Positions 7,151 through 16,805 of a DNA stretch of 64,000 bases are shown here, one piece after another. The stretch lies in assembly GCA_028819215.1 (NCBI GenBank), contig JAPPMG010000066.1, positions 1 to 64,000 of the forward strand. Reading direction: 5' to 3'. Position numbers and translations under genes: made by a program. Origin of the DNA: Bryobacterales bacterium (GTDB lineage Bacteria > Acidobacteriota > Terriglobia > Bryobacterales > UBA6623). Numbering within the stretch: the first letter of the stretch is position 1; every line of letters begins with the position of its first letter. The notes below the pieces were generated by a model. The model searched no databases and was not told the origin of the DNA. It was given only the letters and a program-made list of their open reading frames with translations.

Positions 7151-9553
7151 CTAGAACCGTACGCGCAGTTGCACGGTCGCCTGGCGGCCCGGCGCAAGGG
7201 CCGTGCCCGAGAAGAGCCCGCTGAAATTGATGACGTTGAGCCGGTTCGTAGCGTTGCGCAGGTCGAACTGGAGTGTCGCGGACTTGCTTCCCCGCTCCCA
7301 TACGCGGGATCCGACAGAGAAGTCGAGGCTGAGATTGGGGTGCACTCGCGAGCGCGCGAAATTCACTTTCCTGAGGATGGCGCCCGGAACCGGCTGAGCT
7401 TCGTCGTCGCCATCGTCATCGTCGTCCCCGTCGTCGTCGTCCCCGTCATCATCGTCCCCGTCATCGTCGTCATCATCGTCGTCGTCATCCTCCAGTTCAA
7501 CAGGCAACCCGCTTCCGTACCGGATGCCGAACGAAGCCCAGACTCTGGGATGAATCTGGAATCGGACGGTCGTCGCGACGGTGTTCCGCTGGTCTTGACT
7601 GATCGGGAACTCCTCGACCACGTCCCGGAGTTCCTCCGCCTCCCCGCCCTCCACGAAGAGTCCGCCCGTGACCGGAGATCTAGCCCTTCCCAGCATGTTG
7701 GAGTAGCTGGCGACTGCCGAGATGCCCTTCCATCGCGGGGCTTCGATGCGGACCTCGGTCCCTTCAATCGCCGCCGAATCGAACGTGATCGGGAAAGACA
7801 GGCCGGTATTGAGGAAGACGTCGTCATCGATGTAGTTCTGGAACCGGCGCCAGTAGTGCTTGGCGTCGATCCGCATTGCGCCCCCGATCGGTTTGCGCAT
7901 GCCGATTTCGATGAAATGCCCCTTGTTGGCCGGAACCGCCAGAACCTCTTCGACAGCGTCCAGCCCCAAGCCGGTCCCGGCACTGCTCAGCAGCAAGTTC
8001 TCGGTCGGGGGCGGCTGGAAGATCCGGTCGTAGGAGGCATACAGCTGGAGTCCCGCCGGGGGAACGAAGTAGCTGGCCGCGAGGCGCGGGCTGAACGCGC
8101 GATCCGAAATCAGCAGGCGGTACTCGTCGAAACGGAAGCCGATGCTGGCTGCGAAGTTGCCGGCCCGCAGCTGGTCGTAAGCGTAGAAGCTGGCCTCGGT
8201 GCTGCGCTGCCTGTCGCGGAAGTCCAGATCGAAGTCCGGCAGTTCGTCGGGCTCCGCCATCAGGAAGCGTTCCCGGAGCCCGCTGGATCGAATGTCCCCG
8301 CCGATCTTGAGTGTATGGCGCTCTCCCTCGAACGTCACGTCGGCCATCACCACGCCTTGGCTGAACCCGCGATCCTGCGAAACGTAGACAGGCGTCGACA
8401 GTTCGTTGCTCCAAAGTTCGCTGGTCAGGTCCCGCAGCATCCCGCGGACCGATACCAGCGTCCGGCTTGACAGCGTGCCCTGATAGTGCACCTGCCCTGC
8501 TGTCTCGCTCGACCGGCGGTCCTGTCGCTGCCCTGCCTCCTGCTGGACCAGGTCATTCGGTACCAGGAAGTTCGTGCGGTTCGTGCGCGCGTACCCAGTC
8601 AGCCGATGGCGGCTGCTGAGATCGCGGGCGAACCGCGCGTTGCCGCCGCCGGAACTGCCGCGATTCGTGAAGTTTTCCAGCGAGGGCGGATCGAGGTACC
8701 GGTCGGTGGCGCCCCCCTGAATTCCGATCGTCAGTTCTGTGCCGCCGCTCGCGTACTGGTGCGAGAACGCGCCGATGCGCGTCGCATAGCCCCCGCCCTG
8801 CACATCGAGCGAGGTCCGGTGTCCGCTGATAGCACTCCGTCGCGTGTCAAGCGCGATCACCCCTCCCAGCCTCCGGCCGTATTCGGCCGGAATGCCCGCG
8901 GTAAGGACTGTGACTGCCTCGAACTCGGAGTTCTCGAACGCCGGCGCGAAGGCTATCGAGCGATTGTCGTACAGGGGCATGCCGTCGATTACGTACTGCG
9001 TGTCGTACTCGGACCCCCGTGGGTGGAGCACGGCATTGGCTTCCAGCAACCATCCGGGCATCGCCGTGACCATGTCGACGGTACTCCGGCCCAGAGTGGT
9101 TCCCAGGGCCTGCTCGAGGTCCTCGCGTCCGGATCGCGTGCCCTGCGACGGCCGGTACGGCTCGAACAGGGGCGCGCGGGCGCGAACGGTGACTTGCTCC
9201 CGGACCGTGGCCACGGAGAGTGCGATCTCGACGACCCGCGGAACTGCCGACTGCAATGCGATGCGGCGTTCCGCAACCTCGAATCCCTCGTGGCGCGCTG
9301 TGAGCAAGTAGGTGCCTGGAGGAATGCGATGCAGGGTCGCTCGTCCTTCGGCGTCGGCGACCGCGCCCGCGATGAATTGGGGACTTCGCGAGACGAGCTC
9401 GAGCGCGGCAGGTACGCCCTGGCCACTAGGGTCGATGACGCGAACCTCCAGCCGGCCGTCCATCACTTGGGACGGGGCGGACGGGACGAGAAGAATGGAG
9501 CACGACAACACCGTGGCAACAAGGCGAAGGCGGGCAAAGTGAGAGCGAGACAT
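7151..9553 (-). CDS. TonB-dependent receptor with N-terminal carboxypeptidase-like domain and Asp-rich loop
   Basis: The 800-residue outer-membrane protein starts with a signal peptide (LVATVLSCSILLVPSAPSQ), then a carboxypeptidase-regulatory-like beta-sandwich (about 30-115, LEVRVIDPSGQGVPAALELV). A TonB plug follows (about 135-245, VIDGMPLYDNRSIAFAPAFE; LTAGIPAEYGRRLGGVIALD), then a 22-strand-type barrel ending in the aromatic C-terminus QLRVRF. Near the C-terminus an extraordinary run of 25 Asp and 4 Gly interrupts the barrel after SFGIRYGSGLPVEL. It imports an unknown ligand using TonB energy. It is divergent from an ECF sigma/anti-sigma pair that may control it. Confidence 0.92.
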   Translation of the reverse strand: MSRSHFARLRLVATVLSCSILLVPSAPSQVMDGRLEVRVIDPSGQGVPAALELVSRSPQFIAGAVADAEGRATLHRIPPGTYLLTARHEGFEVAERRIALQSAVPRVVEIALSVATVREQVTVRARAPLFEPYRPSQGTRSGREDLEQALGTTLGRSTVDMVTAMPGWLLEANAVLHPRGSEYDTQYVIDGMPLYDNRSIAFAPAFENSEFEAVTVLTAGIPAEYGRRLGGVIALDTRRSAISGHRTSLDVQGGGYATRIGAFSHQYASGGTELTIGIQGGATDRYLDPPSLENFTNRGSSGGGNARFARDLSSRHRLTGYARTNRTNFLVPNDLVQQEAGQRQDRRSSETAGQVHYQGTLSSRTLVSVRGMLRDLTSELWSNELSTPVYVSQDRGFSQGVVMADVTFEGERHTLKIGGDIRSSGLRERFLMAEPDELPDFDLDFRDRQRSTEASFYAYDQLRAGNFAASIGFRFDEYRLLISDRAFSPRLAASYFVPPAGLQLYASYDRIFQPPPTENLLLSSAGTGLGLDAVEEVLAVPANKGHFIEIGMRKPIGGAMRIDAKHYWRRFQNYIDDDVFLNTGLSFPITFDSAAIEGTEVRIEAPRWKGISAVASYSNMLGRARSPVTGGLFVEGGEAEELRDVVEEFPISQDQRNTVATTVRFQIHPRVWASFGIRYGSGLPVELEDDDDDDDDDDGDDDDGDDDDGDDDDDGDDEAQPVPGAILRKVNFARSRVHPNLSLDFSVGSRVWERGSKSATLQFDLRNATNRLNVINFSGLFSGTALAPGRQATVQLRVRF
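7403..7489 (-). repeat. GAC/GAT trinucleotide tract encoding 25 Asp and 4 Gly
   Basis: On the plus strand this is an almost pure run of gtc/atc triplets broken by four gcc or ccc triplets, with blocks of four or five triplets between them. Read in the receptor frame it encodes Asp blocks of 10, 4, 4, 5 and 2 separated by single Gly. The mixture of GAC and GAT codons argues that the protein composition, not only DNA slippage, is maintained. Confidence 0.95.
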
Positions 9554-9577
9554 GGGCTACACTTGTACATTCCATTT

Positions 9578-9623
9578 CGCCCGGTTTCGTTCAGGGTTTT
9601 TCTGATCACGCCTGAAACGGGCG
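9578..9623. promoter_or_regulatory. imperfect inverted repeat between receptor and sigma-factor genes
   Basis: The arms are CGCCCG...TTCAGG (9578-9595) and CCTGAA-A-CGGGCG (9611-9623). TTCAGG pairs with CCTGAA and CGCCCG with CGGGCG, leaving an internal loop on the left arm. The element lies in the about 95-base gap between the divergent TonB receptor and ECF sigma gene, so it could be an operator or an RNA hairpin for either. No clear -10/-35 pair was assigned. Seen by eye only. Confidence 0.35.
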
Positions 9624-9648: not shown

Positions 9649-10254
9649 ATGGCCGTCAGGCACACATGGTACGTCTCCGCTTCCTCCGTCGGCGGGGCAG
9701 TCGCAACTCTGCCGATTCCGGGAGTTTCCGGCAAGGCAGCTCCCGCAACCCACCGCGTCGAGATCCACGACGAAGTGACCGCCCTGTTCGATGACCTCAG
9801 GGAACCGATCCTCCGCTACCTGCTTTCGATGGGCCTGAGCGTTGCTGACGGCGAAGACGTGGCCCAGGAGACATTCCTGGCGCTGTTCAGACACCTGCGC
9901 CGAGGCCGGCCTCGGACGAACCTGAGAGGCTGGATCTTCCGGACTGCGCACAATCTCGGCTTGAAAAGCCGTAGGCTCGACGGACGGGCTCGAAAGACGA
10001 TTCGAACGCCGTCACTTGCCGACCCCGTAGCTGACGGAGCGCCGAACCCGGAGCAGCAGCTACGCATGCGCCAGCGTCATGAGCGAATGTGTGCTGTGCT
10101 GAACGCGCTCCCCGCGCGCGATCGCTACTGCTTGAGTCTGCGGGCCGAGGGCTTGCGATATCGTGAAATCGCCCGCGTGCTGGGAGTTTCCCTGGGAACG
10201 GTTTCGAATTGCATGAGGCGGGCCGCCTCGCGGCTCCAGAGCGTGCAAGCGTGA
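9649..10254 (+). CDS. ECF-type RNA polymerase sigma factor
   Basis: The 201-residue protein carries sigma region 2 (about 45-110: EPILRYLLSMGLSVADGEDV, then AQETFLALFRHLRR and GWIFRTAHNLGLKSRR) and region 4 (about 140-195: LNALPARDRYCLSLRAEGLR, RYREIARVLGVSLGTVSNCM, a helix-turn-helix for the -35 element). The first about 35 residues are not typical and the true start may lie further in. It is followed 8 bases later by a gene with an anti-sigma zinc motif and is divergent from a TonB receptor, the usual setting for cell-surface signalling control. The regulon is unknown. Confidence 0.88.
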   Translation: MAVRHTWYVSASSVGGAVATLPIPGVSGKAAPATHRVEIHDEVTALFDDLREPILRYLLSMGLSVADGEDVAQETFLALFRHLRRGRPRTNLRGWIFRTAHNLGLKSRRLDGRARKTIRTPSLADPVADGAPNPEQQLRMRQRHERMCAVLNALPARDRYCLSLRAEGLRYREIARVLGVSLGTVSNCMRRAASRLQSVQA

Positions 10255-10262
10255 GGACGACG

Positions 10263-11096
10263 ATGTGGAGCAGCGAAAGACACCTGTCCGACGCGGACCT
10301 AGTCTTCCTTCTGCAGAGCGGATCCCAGGCGCGACGTGCTCGTCGCTACCGGCGGCATATTGAGGAATGCGAAGAGTGCCAGGCTCGGTTGAATGGGATG
10401 CAAGCTCCGCTGCAAGAGTTCTTCGCGGCCCGTCGACGGATTCTGGACGCGGCCCTGCCCCCGCCGGAATCGGCGAGGGATCAGCTCCGTGACGCCCTTG
10501 CCCGGGCCGTTGCGGAGGGCTCGGATCAACGATCGCAGCTGGCTTGGAGGCTCTCCGCCGCCCTAGCCACCGTGGCCTTGGCCATCGCGTTGGGCGCGGG
10601 CGGGATCTTGTGGTACTCCGGCAATGCCCCTGTCGACGGACCGGACGTGGCAGCTCTCCGAGCGGTGCCCGACTCGCGGCTGACGCCTGGCAGGATAGGT
10701 CCCGCGAGTTCGGTCGAGCTGTGTGCGTCCGACAGGCCCGCTGTCCCCGTGACGGTCGACCGCCAGGTTGCGCTGGCGGTCTTCCGGGCCCATGGTATCG
10801 AGACACCGCAGCCGCTGGCGTACGAACTCGATCATTTGGTGCCGCCCGAGCTCGGAGGGGTCACGGTCCCGGAGAACCTGTGGCCGCAGCCCTACGAAGG
10901 GTCGGTCTGGGATGCGAACGCGAAAGACGCGCTCGAGGACAGGCTCGTGCGGAAGACTTGCAGCGGGGAAATCTCGCTACGGGCCGCCCAGGCAGACATC
11001 GCCCGGGACTGGGTCGCCGCCTACCAGAAACACTTCCAGACGGAGAAGCCCTTGGTGGAACATGCGGCGTTCCTGAAGGACCAGCCTTGGGAGTGA
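10263..11096 (+). CDS. membrane anti-sigma-like protein fused to an HNH-like DHLVP...NLWP domain
   Basis: The start is ATG 10263, preceded by GAGGA at good spacing; a GTG at 10251 that overlaps the sigma stop is the alternative. Residues about 25-45 hold H-x3-C-x2-C (RRHIEECEECQARL), the zinc-binding anti-sigma signature. One membrane helix follows (about 97-117, ALATVALAIALGAGGILWY). The roughly 130-residue outer part contains YELDHLVPPELGG and ENLWPQPYEG, the hallmark of an HNH-like family of unknown role seen in small exported proteins. Two conserved Cys (ELCASD, RKTCSG) may form a disulfide. A cytoplasmic sigma-binding half joined to such an extracytoplasmic half is unusual. The anti-sigma role is inferred from motif and position. 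Confidence 0.7.
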   Translation: MWSSERHLSDADLVFLLQSGSQARRARRYRRHIEECEECQARLNGMQAPLQEFFAARRRILDAALPPPESARDQLRDALARAVAEGSDQRSQLAWRLSAALATVALAIALGAGGILWYSGNAPVDGPDVAALRAVPDSRLTPGRIGPASSVELCASDRPAVPVTVDRQVALAVFRAHGIETPQPLAYELDHLVPPELGGVTVPENLWPQPYEGSVWDANAKDALEDRLVRKTCSGEISLRAAQADIARDWVAAYQKHFQTEKPLVEHAAFLKDQPWE

Positions 11097-11465: not shown

Positions 11466-11653
11466 TCCGGGGGACGAGTCAACTCTACTAGACCTAAGTG
11501 CATACCTGGGATCCCCCAATTCTAGGACTTGAGGGTGAGGCACGGTGGGTTTCCGACGGATCTGGAGGCTCTCTATCTGAGCCAAGACACGATGAGCAGA
11601 GACACGACCATCCGTCTGGAGGGCGCTTCTGTGGTACGTTCAATCGGAACGCC

Positions 11654-13486
11654 ATGGCTAATCCTCGCAATCGACAGCCTCGTCCGCTTGACGCACCCGC
11701 ACTCCTAGCGCTCGCGCTGGCAGCCCTGCTGCTAGCCGCGGGCTGCGCGACCGCACCGGTCGACAGCCGGCCGAACATCATCCTCGTGATGACCGACGAC
11801 CAGGGCTACGGCGATGTCGGCGCGCACGGAAATTCGATGATCCGAACGCCGCATCTGGATGCCCTGCACGCTGAGAGCGTGCGGATGACAAACTTCCATG
11901 TCGACCCCACTTGCTCGCCGACCAGATCCGCTCTGATCACCGGAAGATACTCGTCGCGGACCGGTGTCTGGCACACGATCATGGGGCGTTCGATCGTCCA
12001 CCGCGACGAAACCTCGTTCGCCGACGTGCTCTCGGATGCCGGCTACGCGACGGGCTTCTTCGGGAAGTGGCACCTAGGCGACAACTCGCCCTACCGCCCG
12101 ATCGACCGAGGCTTCCAAGAGGCCGTGTACCACGGCGGTGGCGGCGTCGGCCAGACGCCGGACTACTGGGGCAATGACTATTTCGACGACACTTACTGGC
12201 ACAACGGCGAGCCCACCCCTTACGAGGGCTACTGCACCGATGTATTCTTCGACAACGCCCTGCGATTCATCGAGGAGCAGCAAGCCGAGGACGGGAGCCC
12301 ATTCTTCATCTATCTGGCGACGAACGCCCCGCACGGGCCGTTCTTGGTCGACGAGTCCTATTCCAAGCCGTACGCCGACAACGGGGTTCCCTCTCCGATG
12401 GACAAGTTCTACGGCATGATCGAGAACATCGACGACAACATGGGGCGCCTGACCGCGAAACTGGACGAACTCGGCATCGCGAACAACACCCTGCTGATAT
12501 TCATGACCGACAACGGCTCTGCGGCCGGCGTGACCAACACGCACCCGACCCAGAGGGTCGGATCGACCAACGCGGAACTACTCGCGCGGGCGGCCAAGGA
12601 AGAAGCGGAGGGCGCGTGGCAGGGCTTCAACGCCGGAATGCGCGGAAGGAAGGGGTCTGAATACGACGGCGGCCACCGTGTGCCGTTCTTGGTGCGTTGG
12701 CCCGGCGGAAACTTGGGCGAGCCCCGGGATGTCGCGAATCTCGCGGCGCACATCGATGTCCTGCCGACCTTCGCGGACGCGGCAGGCGCGCCGCGGCGGG
12801 AAGACCTAGACTGGGACGGCACGAGCTTGCTGCCCTTGCTGCGAGGCGGGGACTGGGACGACCGGACGCTGGTCGTGCATTCCCAGCGCATCCGGTTCCC
12901 GGAACGCTGGCGCAAGAGTTCCGTCATGACGGAACAGCACCGGCTAGTCAACGGGCAGGAGCTCTATGACATCCAAGCCGATTCGGGCCAGTTGACGGAC
13001 ATCTCGGCCGGAAATCCCGAAGTGGTCGCCGAGCTCCGCGCGGCGTACGACTCGTGGTGGGAGCATATCGACGATCGCTTCGAGCAGCATGTGCACCTAG
13101 ATATCGGCTCGGATGCCGAGAATCCGGCGCGGATCACGGCCCACGACTGGCTCCCTCCCGACGATTCAGTACAGGTGCCCTGGAACCAAGGCCACGTCGC
13201 CCGCGCCCCGGCCGTGAACGGGACTTGGAATATCCAAGTGACTCAAGCGGGTACCTATGAATTCGAGCTGTACCAGCGCGACGAGCCTGCCAGCTTCCCG
13301 ATCGAGGCGAATACGGCGACGCTCCGCATCGGAGAGCTGGAAGAGACCGTGCCCGTAGAGTCTGGCGCGTCCGTCGCGACCATCAAGATGGAGCTGCCCG
13401 CAGGCAAGACGACCATGCACAGCCGGTTCATTGCCGAAGACGGGACTGAGCGAGGGGCGTTCTACATCTACGCAAAGCGCCTGTAG
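11654..13486 (+). CDS. lipoprotein sulfatase (arylsulfatase-type)
   Basis: The start is ATG 11654; the ORF-track extension reads back over the transposase relic. The 610-residue product has a lipoprotein signal (ALALAALLLAAGC), the N-terminal metal motif PNIILVMTDDQGYGDVGAHG, and the formylglycine motif C-S-P-T-R within DPTCSPTRSALITGRY. It also has the GKWHLGD and FMTDNGSAAG motifs. The catalytic alpha/beta domain covers roughly 40-480. A beta-rich C-terminal extension (about 490-610, NGTWNIQVTQAGTYEFELYQ) is extra and may bind carbohydrate. It should release sulfate from an organic sulfate ester at the cell surface. Maturation of the Cys needs an FGE or anSME enzyme, not seen in this window. 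Confidence 0.92.
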   Translation: MANPRNRQPRPLDAPALLALALAALLLAAGCATAPVDSRPNIILVMTDDQGYGDVGAHGNSMIRTPHLDALHAESVRMTNFHVDPTCSPTRSALITGRYSSRTGVWHTIMGRSIVHRDETSFADVLSDAGYATGFFGKWHLGDNSPYRPIDRGFQEAVYHGGGGVGQTPDYWGNDYFDDTYWHNGEPTPYEGYCTDVFFDNALRFIEEQQAEDGSPFFIYLATNAPHGPFLVDESYSKPYADNGVPSPMDKFYGMIENIDDNMGRLTAKLDELGIANNTLLIFMTDNGSAAGVTNTHPTQRVGSTNAELLARAAKEEAEGAWQGFNAGMRGRKGSEYDGGHRVPFLVRWPGGNLGEPRDVANLAAHIDVLPTFADAAGAPRREDLDWDGTSLLPLLRGGDWDDRTLVVHSQRIRFPERWRKSSVMTEQHRLVNGQELYDIQADSGQLTDISAGNPEVVAELRAAYDSWWEHIDDRFEQHVHLDIGSDAENPARITAHDWLPPDDSVQVPWNQGHVARAPAVNGTWNIQVTQAGTYEFELYQRDEPASFPIEANTATLRIGELEETVPVESGASVATIKMELPAGKTTMHSRFIAEDGTERGAFYIYAKRL

Positions 13487-13946: not shown

Positions 13947-16805
13947 CTAGAACCTTACAGAAAGGCGCGCATAGTAGAAGCCACCGTTGAAGCCGAAAGG
14001 CGCTGACCGGCGCGAGAAGAGGAAGACCCCAGGCGATTCGACGATGACCCTGCCACTCGAATCCTCAAGCCGACCGTTTCGCGTCTGGCCCACGTGGTTC
14101 TGATCCGGAACGGTGTTGAGCAGGTTCTGGGCCCCGACCGTCAGCTCGGTGTGCTTGAAGACCCTGAAACCAACATGCATGTCGGTAACCACCTTTCCGC
14201 AGAACTGCTGGCGCGATCCGCCAATCGGGCTCGCGGAGAAGCCCGACGATCCGCAGGGCCTCTCGCCTAGGTTTCCGCCTTCCTGCACCCAGTAGCTGCC
14301 GAAGTAGCGCACCGCTCCGCCGACCTTGAACAGGCCGATGCTGTAGTCCGCCATCCCCTGGACGCGGGTGTTGGGCTGCCATTCCGTCAGGATCGAGCGA
14401 TCCTGGCTCCCGAAGATCGTGTCCTCGAGGCCGGCCAGCAGCGTCGGGGCGTTGACCCCGCCCACTAAATCCGTGTTCACGAGCATGCCGGAAAGGCCGA
14501 AGTCCAGCACGGATCCGTTCCGCCAAGCGTGCAAGCTGCTAAATGAAAACTCCATTCCCGAGGTGACCGTCTCTGCAGCGTTCGTAAAGAACTGCGACGC
14601 CGTGGCGTTGACGGCGTCGAGGCCGGCGATCGCTTCGGGAATGCCCGCGAGCTTGGCGGCGGTGAACGAGCCGCTGATCACGATGCGGTCCTGCACGGTG
14701 ACCCGAAACGCGTCCACGGTCAGCGAGGTCGTCGGGCTGATGCGAACGACCGCCCCGCCGCTGAAGTTCACCGACCGCTCCTGCTTGAGATCCGGGATGC
14801 CCAGCGCCTTGGCGACCGAGCTGTCGTTCGAGTAGGTTCCGCGTTCCTGCGCGACAGTCTCGCCCGCGGCATTTGTCACGAATTGGGTGCTCACGTTCGT
14901 GAAGTGGAGCTGGTGCAGCGAGGGCGCCCGGAAGCCGGTGTTCACGCTTCCGCGGAGGGCGAAGGCGGGGTTGAAGTCGTAGCGGACGGACAGCTTTCCG
15001 GTGAGTGCGCCGCCGAAGTCGCTATAGCGCTCAAAGCGCCCAGCCATACCGACCTTGAAGCCGTTTCCAAAGCCGATTTCGACATCGCCGTAGAAGCCGG
15101 CATTCGTCCGGCTCTCGTCCACGTTCCGCTGGAAGCCCGGGAAAACCTGGATCCCGGCCGGCGCCGCGACACAGACCGAATCGTCCTCGATGCCCGGATC
15201 GTCCTTGCAATTGCGGTACGAGAAGGGATCGCCCGCCCGGATTCCGTAGCGGTCCCGGCGAAGCTCGGCTCCGAACGCGAGATTCGTGGTCCGGCCGCCG
15301 CCCTCAAACTGCCGCGAGACGTCGAAGTTGGACGTGGTCTGGTCAAACCGCGGGCCCCCGGAGTCCGCCTGGCGCGGGCTGAGGGTGCCGTAGGTGGCGT
15401 TGTTGGAATTCGTGATCAGGAAGTCGAACGAGTTGCGCCCGTGACTCATGCTGAGGTCGAAATTCCAGCCTGTGGCCGAAGTCAGGTCGAAGCCCGCCAC
15501 GAACGACAAGTCGGAGACCTCGGTATTGATCTGTGGCAGGAACCCGTCGGGATAAAACTCCAAGACTGTGTTGCTGACATTGGCGCGACGGTAGAAACCC
15601 GTGCTGTGGTTGTTGCGGAGGGTCCAGCCGCCAAAGGAGTAGAAGCTGGCTCGCTTGCCGATCGGAACCCCGGCGTTGTAGTACGCGCTCAGCTGATCGC
15701 TGTCCGCATCCCCGATCCGGAAATTCTTGCGATAGAAGGTGTACTCGCGGGGGTCGAAGCACCTGCCCGGCGTTCCTGCGCCCGGGTTCCCTTCGCCGCT
15801 GCCGACTGCATACGGCACGTCCAGCGGGCAGTCCACCAGCGGGTACTGGGTCCGAGCGCTCCAGCCCGCTCGATTGGTGCGATAGCGATCGCGGGATTCG
15901 AAGGTCAGGTTCAGGAACCCGCCCTTCTCCGAAGCCCATCCGCCGTGCATGCTGTTCATCAAGGTGTCGCCGTCCCCGGCGTAGGTCTGCCCCCAAGCGG
16001 TGTCGAAGGCGAAGCCAGGGCTGTCTTTCAGGACGATGTTGATCACCCCCGCGATCGCGTCCGAGCCGTACTGGGCTGCGGCGCCGTCACGCAGCACTTC
16101 GATGCGCTCGACTGCCGCGATCGGAATCGCGTTCATGTCGGTACCAGCCGTGCCCCGGCCGACCGACGTGTTGACGTGGAGCAGGGCGCTGTTGTGCCGT
16201 CGCTTGCCGTTGACCAACACCAGCGTCTGGTCGGGGCCCAGGCCCCGAAGGGTCGCGGGGCGCAGCGCATCCGTCCCGTCGCTGATCGTCGAGCTGGAGA
16301 AGTTGAACGACGGGGCTTGCATCTGCAGGGCGCGCCCTGTCTCGAGCTGTCCCGTGCTCCGCAGACGCTCGCCCAGCACCAGCTCGACCGGGACTGCGGA
16401 CTCGAGGGGCTGCACGCCCTCGGAGCGAGTGCCGACGCTGGCTTCCACATCGATGACCTCGCTGACGACCTCGAGCTGTAGTTGGATGGTGACCGATCCC
16501 TCGGACCCGGCCACTTCCCGGCTGGCGGTGGCAAAGTTCGGTGCGCTCACGACCACCGAGTGCGGACCGTCGGCCAGGCCGCCAAAAATCGCGACGCCGC
16601 TGTCATCGGTCGGCATCTCTTGGTCTCCGATCGCCACGGATGCGTTGGTGACGGCGTCCGAGAACGGATCGATTACCTTCACGCTGAGTGCTTGGCCGAA
16701 GAGCGGGGTGGTCGATAGCAGTCCGAAGAGAAACGACACTGCCAGAAGCGGCCCAGTCCTAGGCTCGAGGGCCGGACGCACCCTGTGCTGGGCTCGATTG
16801 AGCAT
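13947..16805 (-). CDS. TonB-dependent receptor (large, with N-terminal CarboxypepD_reg-like domain)
   Basis: The 952-residue outer-membrane protein has a signal peptide (LLAVSFLFGLLSTTPLFGQ) and a beta-sandwich of about 80 residues (LSVKVIDPFSDAVTNASVAI). A plug domain follows (about 130-260, TLRGLGPDQTLVLVNGKRRH; RIEVLRDGAAAQYGSDAIAG, a very well conserved plug motif), then a barrel ending GGFYYARLSVRF. The plug resembles receptors for complex organic ligands rather than classic siderophore receptors, but the substrate cannot be told. It is divergent from the DUF3604 genes, which suggests import of products handled by those enzymes. Confidence 0.92.
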   Translation of the reverse strand: MLNRAQHRVRPALEPRTGPLLAVSFLFGLLSTTPLFGQALSVKVIDPFSDAVTNASVAIGDQEMPTDDSGVAIFGGLADGPHSVVVSAPNFATASREVAGSEGSVTIQLQLEVVSEVIDVEASVGTRSEGVQPLESAVPVELVLGERLRSTGQLETGRALQMQAPSFNFSSSTISDGTDALRPATLRGLGPDQTLVLVNGKRRHNSALLHVNTSVGRGTAGTDMNAIPIAAVERIEVLRDGAAAQYGSDAIAGVINIVLKDSPGFAFDTAWGQTYAGDGDTLMNSMHGGWASEKGGFLNLTFESRDRYRTNRAGWSARTQYPLVDCPLDVPYAVGSGEGNPGAGTPGRCFDPREYTFYRKNFRIGDADSDQLSAYYNAGVPIGKRASFYSFGGWTLRNNHSTGFYRRANVSNTVLEFYPDGFLPQINTEVSDLSFVAGFDLTSATGWNFDLSMSHGRNSFDFLITNSNNATYGTLSPRQADSGGPRFDQTTSNFDVSRQFEGGGRTTNLAFGAELRRDRYGIRAGDPFSYRNCKDDPGIEDDSVCVAAPAGIQVFPGFQRNVDESRTNAGFYGDVEIGFGNGFKVGMAGRFERYSDFGGALTGKLSVRYDFNPAFALRGSVNTGFRAPSLHQLHFTNVSTQFVTNAAGETVAQERGTYSNDSSVAKALGIPDLKQERSVNFSGGAVVRISPTTSLTVDAFRVTVQDRIVISGSFTAAKLAGIPEAIAGLDAVNATASQFFTNAAETVTSGMEFSFSSLHAWRNGSVLDFGLSGMLVNTDLVGGVNAPTLLAGLEDTIFGSQDRSILTEWQPNTRVQGMADYSIGLFKVGGAVRYFGSYWVQEGGNLGERPCGSSGFSASPIGGSRQQFCGKVVTDMHVGFRVFKHTELTVGAQNLLNTVPDQNHVGQTRNGRLEDSSGRVIVESPGVFLFSRRSAPFGFNGGFYYARLSVRF

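Follow-up and report, generated by a model that had tools for sequence, protein, structure and literature searches.

Cell-surface signaling systems such as FecI-FecR-FecA and FoxI-FoxR-FoxA (PMC11637429) combine an ECF sigma factor with a single-pass anti-sigma factor, which has a periplasmic C-terminal half, and with a TonB receptor, which carries an extra N-terminal periplasmic domain and whose gene is transcribed by the sigma factor. An anti-sigma factor with an enzyme-derived outer half is also known: RsgI6 of Clostridium thermocellum, an anti-sigma-I factor, has an outer GH10 domain, formerly an enzyme and now of low catalytic activity, which is thought to be a binding sensor (PMC4711584). 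The zinc class I anti-sigma factors (ASDI), such as ChrR, RsrA, and RsiW, are marked by an N-terminal Hx3Cx2C domain and an adjoining ECF gene; the main text of the survey of this class mentions no member with an HNH-like outer domain, and the term 'HNH' is absent from it (PMC7406223). For the HNH domain itself, Cas9 is a described example, where D839 and N863 are Mg ligands and H840 serves as the general base (PMC6706240). Here, we describe a bacterial locus that probably encodes a membrane zinc anti-sigma factor whose outer half comes from a secreted HNH-like family, and that would form a cell-surface signaling circuit driving a TonB-type receptor; from the sequence evidence, we put the probability of this reading at roughly 0.7. 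The literature searched, which omits most subscription journals, contained no account of an anti-sigma sensor of the HNH-like kind.

The window, that is, the whole stretch of DNA analyzed, comprises 64,000 nucleotides from a Bryobacterales bacterium of the Acidobacteriota, a phylum of soil and sponge bacteria. The open reading frame of the anti-sigma factor starts 8 nt past the stop codon of the ECF gene, which is one of 16 ECF-type genes over the cut-off in this genome, and the receptor-like gene lies divergently on the other side (Table 1). The reading frame is a genuine gene; its product is found in four relatives (MAGs labelled Terriglobia or Bryobacterales) with 88-94% identity and identical ends. 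Downstream of it lies a sulfatase gene (11498-13486, Pfam 1.3e-59), whose position is kept in the related loci L004-L007 and L055 and which may hint at sulfated substrates, and beyond the sulfatase lies a second, complete TonB receptor with a CarboxypepD_reg domain (13947-16805, minus strand).

Table 1. Features of the locus, with positions in the window and the basis of each assignment
Feature	Position	Strand	Basis
TonB-receptor-like gene, divergent, CarboxypepD_reg domain at the N-terminus; predicted sigma-factor target	7151..9553	-	PF13620 1.9e-11; joined to TonB receptors by iterative search
TGAAC-N15-GGAAT promoter of ECF type, A-tract upstream, facing the divergent receptor gene	9569..9593	-	motif search, exact match
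ECF sigma factor gene, 201 aa from first ATG	9649..10254	+	Pfam Sigma70_r2 2.8e-9, r4_2 3.9e-11; NCBIfam TIGR02937
Membrane anti-sigma factor with HNH-derived extracytoplasmic domain (predicted), 277 aa	10263..11096	+	ORF, ATG to TGA
Hx3Cx2C zinc motif H32-C36-C39 (H32-I-E-E-C36-E-E-C39), anti-sigma domain	10356..10379	+	sequence; NCBIfam NF052375
Single membrane helix, about residues 97-118	10551..10616	+	hydrophobicity; similarly placed hydrophobic stretch in fused relatives
Outer HNH-like beta-beta-alpha domain, about residues 140-258	10680..11036	+	AlphaFold2; phage HNHc match; weak HNH matches in relatives
D190, the invariant metal-ligand Asp, and H191, the general-base His, which most fused relatives replace by Tyr	10830..10835	+	
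P195, marker residue of the fused subfamily	10845..10847	+	residue counts
N205 of NLWP, an invariant residue and, by analogy with N863 of Cas9, the second metal ligand	10875..10877	+	

The initial annotation had proposed an H-x3-C-x2-C zinc anti-sigma factor encoded next to its ECF sigma factor and crossing the membrane once. Both proposals agree with the data, since the motif is present at H32-C36-C39, the ECF assignment of the neighboring gene is confirmed by Pfam, and a hydrophobic stretch lies at about residues 97-118. The anti-sigma model NF052375 matches the window protein with an E-value of 3.2e-8, below the cut-off of the model, and zf-HC2 is matched above the cut-off in five relatives (L056, L076, L092, L144, and L146). 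By its N-terminal Hx3Cx2C motif and its ECF neighbor, the protein is placed among the zinc class I anti-sigma factors. Two fused copies, L079 and L085, both beside an ECF gene, have a decayed zinc motif (IHCWQC), which is consistent with a structural rather than a sensory role of the zinc.

The outer part of about 160 residues contains the two motifs that the initial annotation had pointed out, D190-H191-L-V-P-P-E-L-G-G and N205-L-W-P-Q-P. A direct scan of this domain of the window protein matched no Pfam or NCBIfam HNH model; its relatives show weak matches to HNH, HNH_5, Endonuclea_NS_2, and several PHROG HNH families. In the AlphaFold2 model of the domain, built from 62 sequences of the window, the genome collection, and viral contigs (mean pLDDT 79.9, pTM 0.77), D190-H191 ends one strand, N205 starts the next, and K221-D222 lies in the helix after it, a strand-strand-helix order that corresponds, as modeled, to the beta-beta-alpha metal finger. 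This model matches models of phage HNHc domains in Foldseek (E 6.9e-7, TM 0.72). Matches to the PDB were mostly HNH domains, none of them significant (best E 1.3), and a profile of the domain gave a weak match to Cas8f-HNH (E 0.033); Cas8f-HNH is the best PDB match by both profile and fold, significant in neither, and it covers the short HNH core and not the helical C-terminal part. The D-H...N order is shared with the HNH domains of Cas9 and Cas8f, onto which the residues are mapped by analogy, although these two, unlike the window protein, are cytoplasmic RNA-guided nucleases.

The fusion was next to an ECF gene not just in the window. About 121 fused copies were found in Acidobacteriota, and in nearly all of them, with one clear exception, an ECF gene lies directly upstream. 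The outer domain has homologues in 90 of 200 sampled genomes of the order and 120 of 399 of the class, and these are sparse in the remaining phylum (9 of 247 and 25 of 396 genomes in two overlapping samples). As a first set, 94 loci were fetched, and 60 loci across the class were chosen afterwards as a test. The first set contained 77 fused loci with the zinc motif and an upstream ECF gene, the two loci with an ECF gene and a degenerate zinc motif (L079 and L085), and five with the zinc motif in which no ECF gene was detected; four of the five are close to a contig end, and the fifth, L114, is a true exception. In the test set, all 34 fused copies had the zinc motif and the ECF gene, 25 standalone copies had neither, and one copy was truncated. 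The loci split cleanly into fused copies, having a zinc motif, a membrane stretch, and an upstream ECF gene, and standalone secreted proteins without zinc motif or ECF gene. The question raised in the initial annotation, whether the fusion exists in other genomes and always lies beside ECF genes, is answered positively, apart from a few truncated loci and L114; an absence of homologues with this fusion, named there as refuting, is excluded by more than 100 fused loci, and because of this recurrence the pairing of an anti-sigma part with an HNH-like part is far beyond chance. At L114, the frame preceding the fused anti-sigma gene resembles that of a secreted protein, and a TonB-type receptor lies downstream.

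The fused copies sampled come from one phylum, Acidobacteriota, other phyla being represented by plasmids and viral contigs alone, and the plasmid copies (12 read) and viral-contig copies (80 read) are all standalone. These DHLI-LELGG-NLWP proteins of phages, plasmids, and many bacteria share with the window protein the same domain, the Cys pair, and the D, N, K, D, E, and W residues; they differ in that a signal peptide replaces the anti-sigma part, the His is kept, position 195 is Leu, and no ECF gene is nearby. A profile search of IMG/VR found the secreted standalone form in at least 399 viral contigs, whereas the window domain, used as the query, had no match among GenBank phages. DH is intact in the 80 viral copies read (L161-L240), and the domain is apparently a common, uncharacterized exported protein of environmental phages. 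Several of the plasmid copies (L149-L160) lie near genes for single-stranded DNA-binding protein, DNA ligase, DNA methyltransferase, and RNase HII, neighbors that might point to a function in transferring or degrading DNA.

Fused and standalone copies differ at the general-base position. Among 121 fused copies, this residue is Tyr in 110, Phe in one, and His in 10, whereas among 130 standalone copies, some of whose viral members are near-duplicates found with a pattern admitting Tyr or His alone at this position, it is His in 129 and Tyr in one. The putative metal ligand D190 and the residues N205, K221, D222, and E225 are essentially invariant in fused (119 rows) and standalone copies alike. 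Position 195 is Pro in all 119 fused rows and in none of the 55 standalone rows, which have Leu instead. With 111 of the 121 fused copies having Tyr or Phe in place of the general-base His, the fused family looks mostly like a pseudo-nuclease, and the label 'nuclease' is doubtful for it. The 'nuclease-like fold' of the initial annotation thus stands for the fold, which the modeled beta-beta-alpha arrangement of the inspected site residues supports, and is questionable as to nuclease for most of the family. The one standalone Tyr, in L160 of the Sphingobium plasmid pHAL16, has toprim, helix-turn-helix, and single-stranded DNA-binding protein genes as neighbors and is a possible independent loss of the general base.

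The window copy belongs to the minority with His, and D190, H191, N205, K221, and D222 are complete in it and in L004-L007 and L055; beyond this clade, two other fused groups have His, with the copies L262, L267, L272, and L274. In a tree built without the His/Tyr column, the fused copies form one clade (SH-aLRT 99), within which the six-member His clade of the window is nested with the Tyr copy L056 as its sister (SH-aLRT 96, and 99 in a larger tree); these trees have 122-127 columns, their deeper order is uncertain, and the sister is a single sequence. Retention of the ancestral His in this clade was considered and found less likely than reversal, because the clade nests among Tyr copies and has P195. 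The sequences thus favor a history of one capture, one loss of His, and a later regain in the window's genus, where the intact DH is probably a regained state; Tyr and His codons are one transition apart. His was perhaps regained twice elsewhere as well (genus code g239). Genome G652 has two fused paralogues, L261 and L267, one with DY and one with DH, which are natural material for probing what this residue does.

A divergent TonB receptor had also been suggested by the initial annotation. The gene in question matches CarboxypepD_reg at its N-terminus, and Pfam gave no direct match to a plug or barrel in it; an iterative search joined it to receptors having both. A TonB-type receptor is present in the fetched flanks (about 4-5 kb) of 91 of 111 fused loci (62 of 77 in the first set and 29 of 34 in the second), mostly divergent and adjoining the ECF gene, versus two of 40 standalone loci (0 of 14 and 2 of 26), with a p-value of about 1e-18 that, like the one below, is a guide only, as related genomes are not independent. 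For comparison, about two of the 15 other ECF genes in the window's genome have a Plug match within 3 kb, a minimum figure because the Plug model misses the window's own receptor.

The 380 nt preceding the ECF domain were searched, without supervision, for two short blocks spaced by 14-18 nt. The best 9-base motif was ATTCC-N15-GTTC, present in 45 of 99 non-redundant loci, with seven as the largest number in eight shuffled sets. On the opposite strand, this motif is TGAAC-N15-GGAAT and faces the receptor; the sites share an upstream A-tract, and the fuller form is CTGAACAAA-N11-GGAATAT. Exact sites face the receptor in 52 of 110 loci and the ECF gene in 30, and all 82 exact sites with spacings of 14-16 have a spacing of 15. 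With up to one mismatch allowed, a receptor-facing site is found in 61 of the 70 loci whose receptor is divergent, leaving nine without one, but in 11 of 40 loci without such a receptor (p 5e-10), and in 22 of 790 random windows per strand. The loci hold 84 exact sites in 42 kb of ECF-upstream DNA, compared with 22 in 1.34 Mb elsewhere. In the window's one exact site, the end lies 15 nt short of the receptor frame's first ATG, although the true start codon may be further in, and no exact site in the window faces its own ECF gene. The promoter motif strongly supports the prediction that the sigma factor transcribes the receptor gene. The whole genome has 12 exact sites, compared with three for the reversed control pattern, and the window's site alone combines the A-tract with a receptor start codon; a mainly local circuit is therefore favored over a genome-wide regulon. 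Another exact site (L322, contig C18:54345-54369) lies about 0.5 kb 5' of a different ECF gene; the anti-sigma factor belonging to that gene (L003) is distantly related and has another outer part.

In its layout, the locus is similar to the Fec and Fox systems: an ECF sigma factor, an anti-sigma factor of predicted single-pass topology with its C-terminal half in the periplasm, a receptor with an additional N-terminal domain, and a receptor gene that is predicted to be transcribed by the sigma factor. Its components are different, however. The anti-sigma domain is of the zinc Hx3Cx2C type, the HNH-like domain replaces the FecR/STN-like C-terminal half, and FecR Pfam models matched neither the window protein nor nine relatives; among 11 receptors examined, CarboxypepD_reg is found in 10 and STN in none. 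Because the FecR-type domain and the receptor STN domain are both absent, the circuit, judged by its domains, would work like FecI-FecR-FecA and yet falls outside the FecR/FecA family. The resemblance to RsgI6 lies in the enzyme-derived outer half of a membrane anti-sigma factor, whereas RsgI6 has a glycoside hydrolase in place of the HNH-like fold, belongs to the SigI/RsgI family and a Gram-positive envelope, and has no TonB receptor.

We propose that the N-terminal zinc domain would hold the ECF sigma factor at the membrane, and that the outer domain would be a periplasmic sensor that binds rather than cuts. The metal ligands are kept and the base is missing, which suggests, by analogy with the GH10 domain of RsgI6, binding without cutting. 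The bound partner could be the N-terminal CarboxypepD_reg domain of the receptor or, alternatively, a ligand of the ancestral active site, one containing a metal or phosphate; receptor contact, as in Fox signaling, and ligand sensing are equally open. Loss or gain of the contact would open the anti-sigma factor to stepwise proteolysis, regulated proteolysis being the release route in other membrane anti-sigma factors. The freed sigma factor would then transcribe the receptor gene and, in many relatives, also its own operon. A more specific version, in which the anti-sigma factor senses extracytoplasmic nucleic acid, a related phosphodiester, or a metal ligand through a domesticated, mostly non-cutting HNH site and thereby turns on a TonB receptor for what it senses, seems to us unlikely, if conceivable.

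The outer domain could have a simpler task, that of a passive structural plug or docking module contacting the receptor or a regulatory protease, with the ancestral site uninvolved. Contact between sensor and receptor is the rule in FecR-type signaling (PMC11637429), and the receptors here have an extra N-terminal periplasmic domain; however, the near invariance of D190, N205, K221, D222, and E225 in the 119 fused rows exceeds the needs of a plain dock, and we consider this explanation possible but doubtful. Another suggestion is that in the window's genus the domain is an active periplasmic nuclease, and that cleavage of nucleic acid or another phosphodiester, or release of the product, triggers the sigma factor. 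The complete set of site residues in the window copy, L004-L007, and L055, together with the His of four further copies, speaks for this idea, but the circuit is unchanged in the 111 fused copies without His, the window copy falls inside a Tyr-bearing clade by its P195 and by the tree, and the literature searched gave no described activity for the standalone family, which makes an active nuclease improbable.

A coincidental neighborhood would leave an ordinary stress-responsive sigma/anti-sigma pair beside TonB receptors, with its regulon elsewhere. Receptors are abundant in the window's genome (43 Plug matches), and some ECF-receptor neighborhoods are therefore coincidental; in addition, no receptor is in reach at 20 of 111 fused loci. 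These observations are opposed by the promoter enrichment, the fixed spacing, the association of the site with a divergent receptor, and the singular position of the window's site among those in its genome, and mere coincidence appears very unlikely.

The preferred reading, a captured HNH-like sensor in a receptor-driving circuit, would extend the short list of anti-sigma sensor domains by one derived from a nuclease. It would also provide one clear route by which a secreted enzyme-like protein is captured as a sensor, with the general base mostly lost and the metal ligands kept, and it draws attention to the secreted HNH-like proteins of phages and plasmids as an abundant, uncharacterized family. 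With TGAAC-N15-GGAAT as a concrete promoter, cultured Terriglobia would allow direct tests of the target gene and the sensed compound. The circuit is widespread across Acidobacteriota, a phylum with many TonB receptors about whose regulation little is known.
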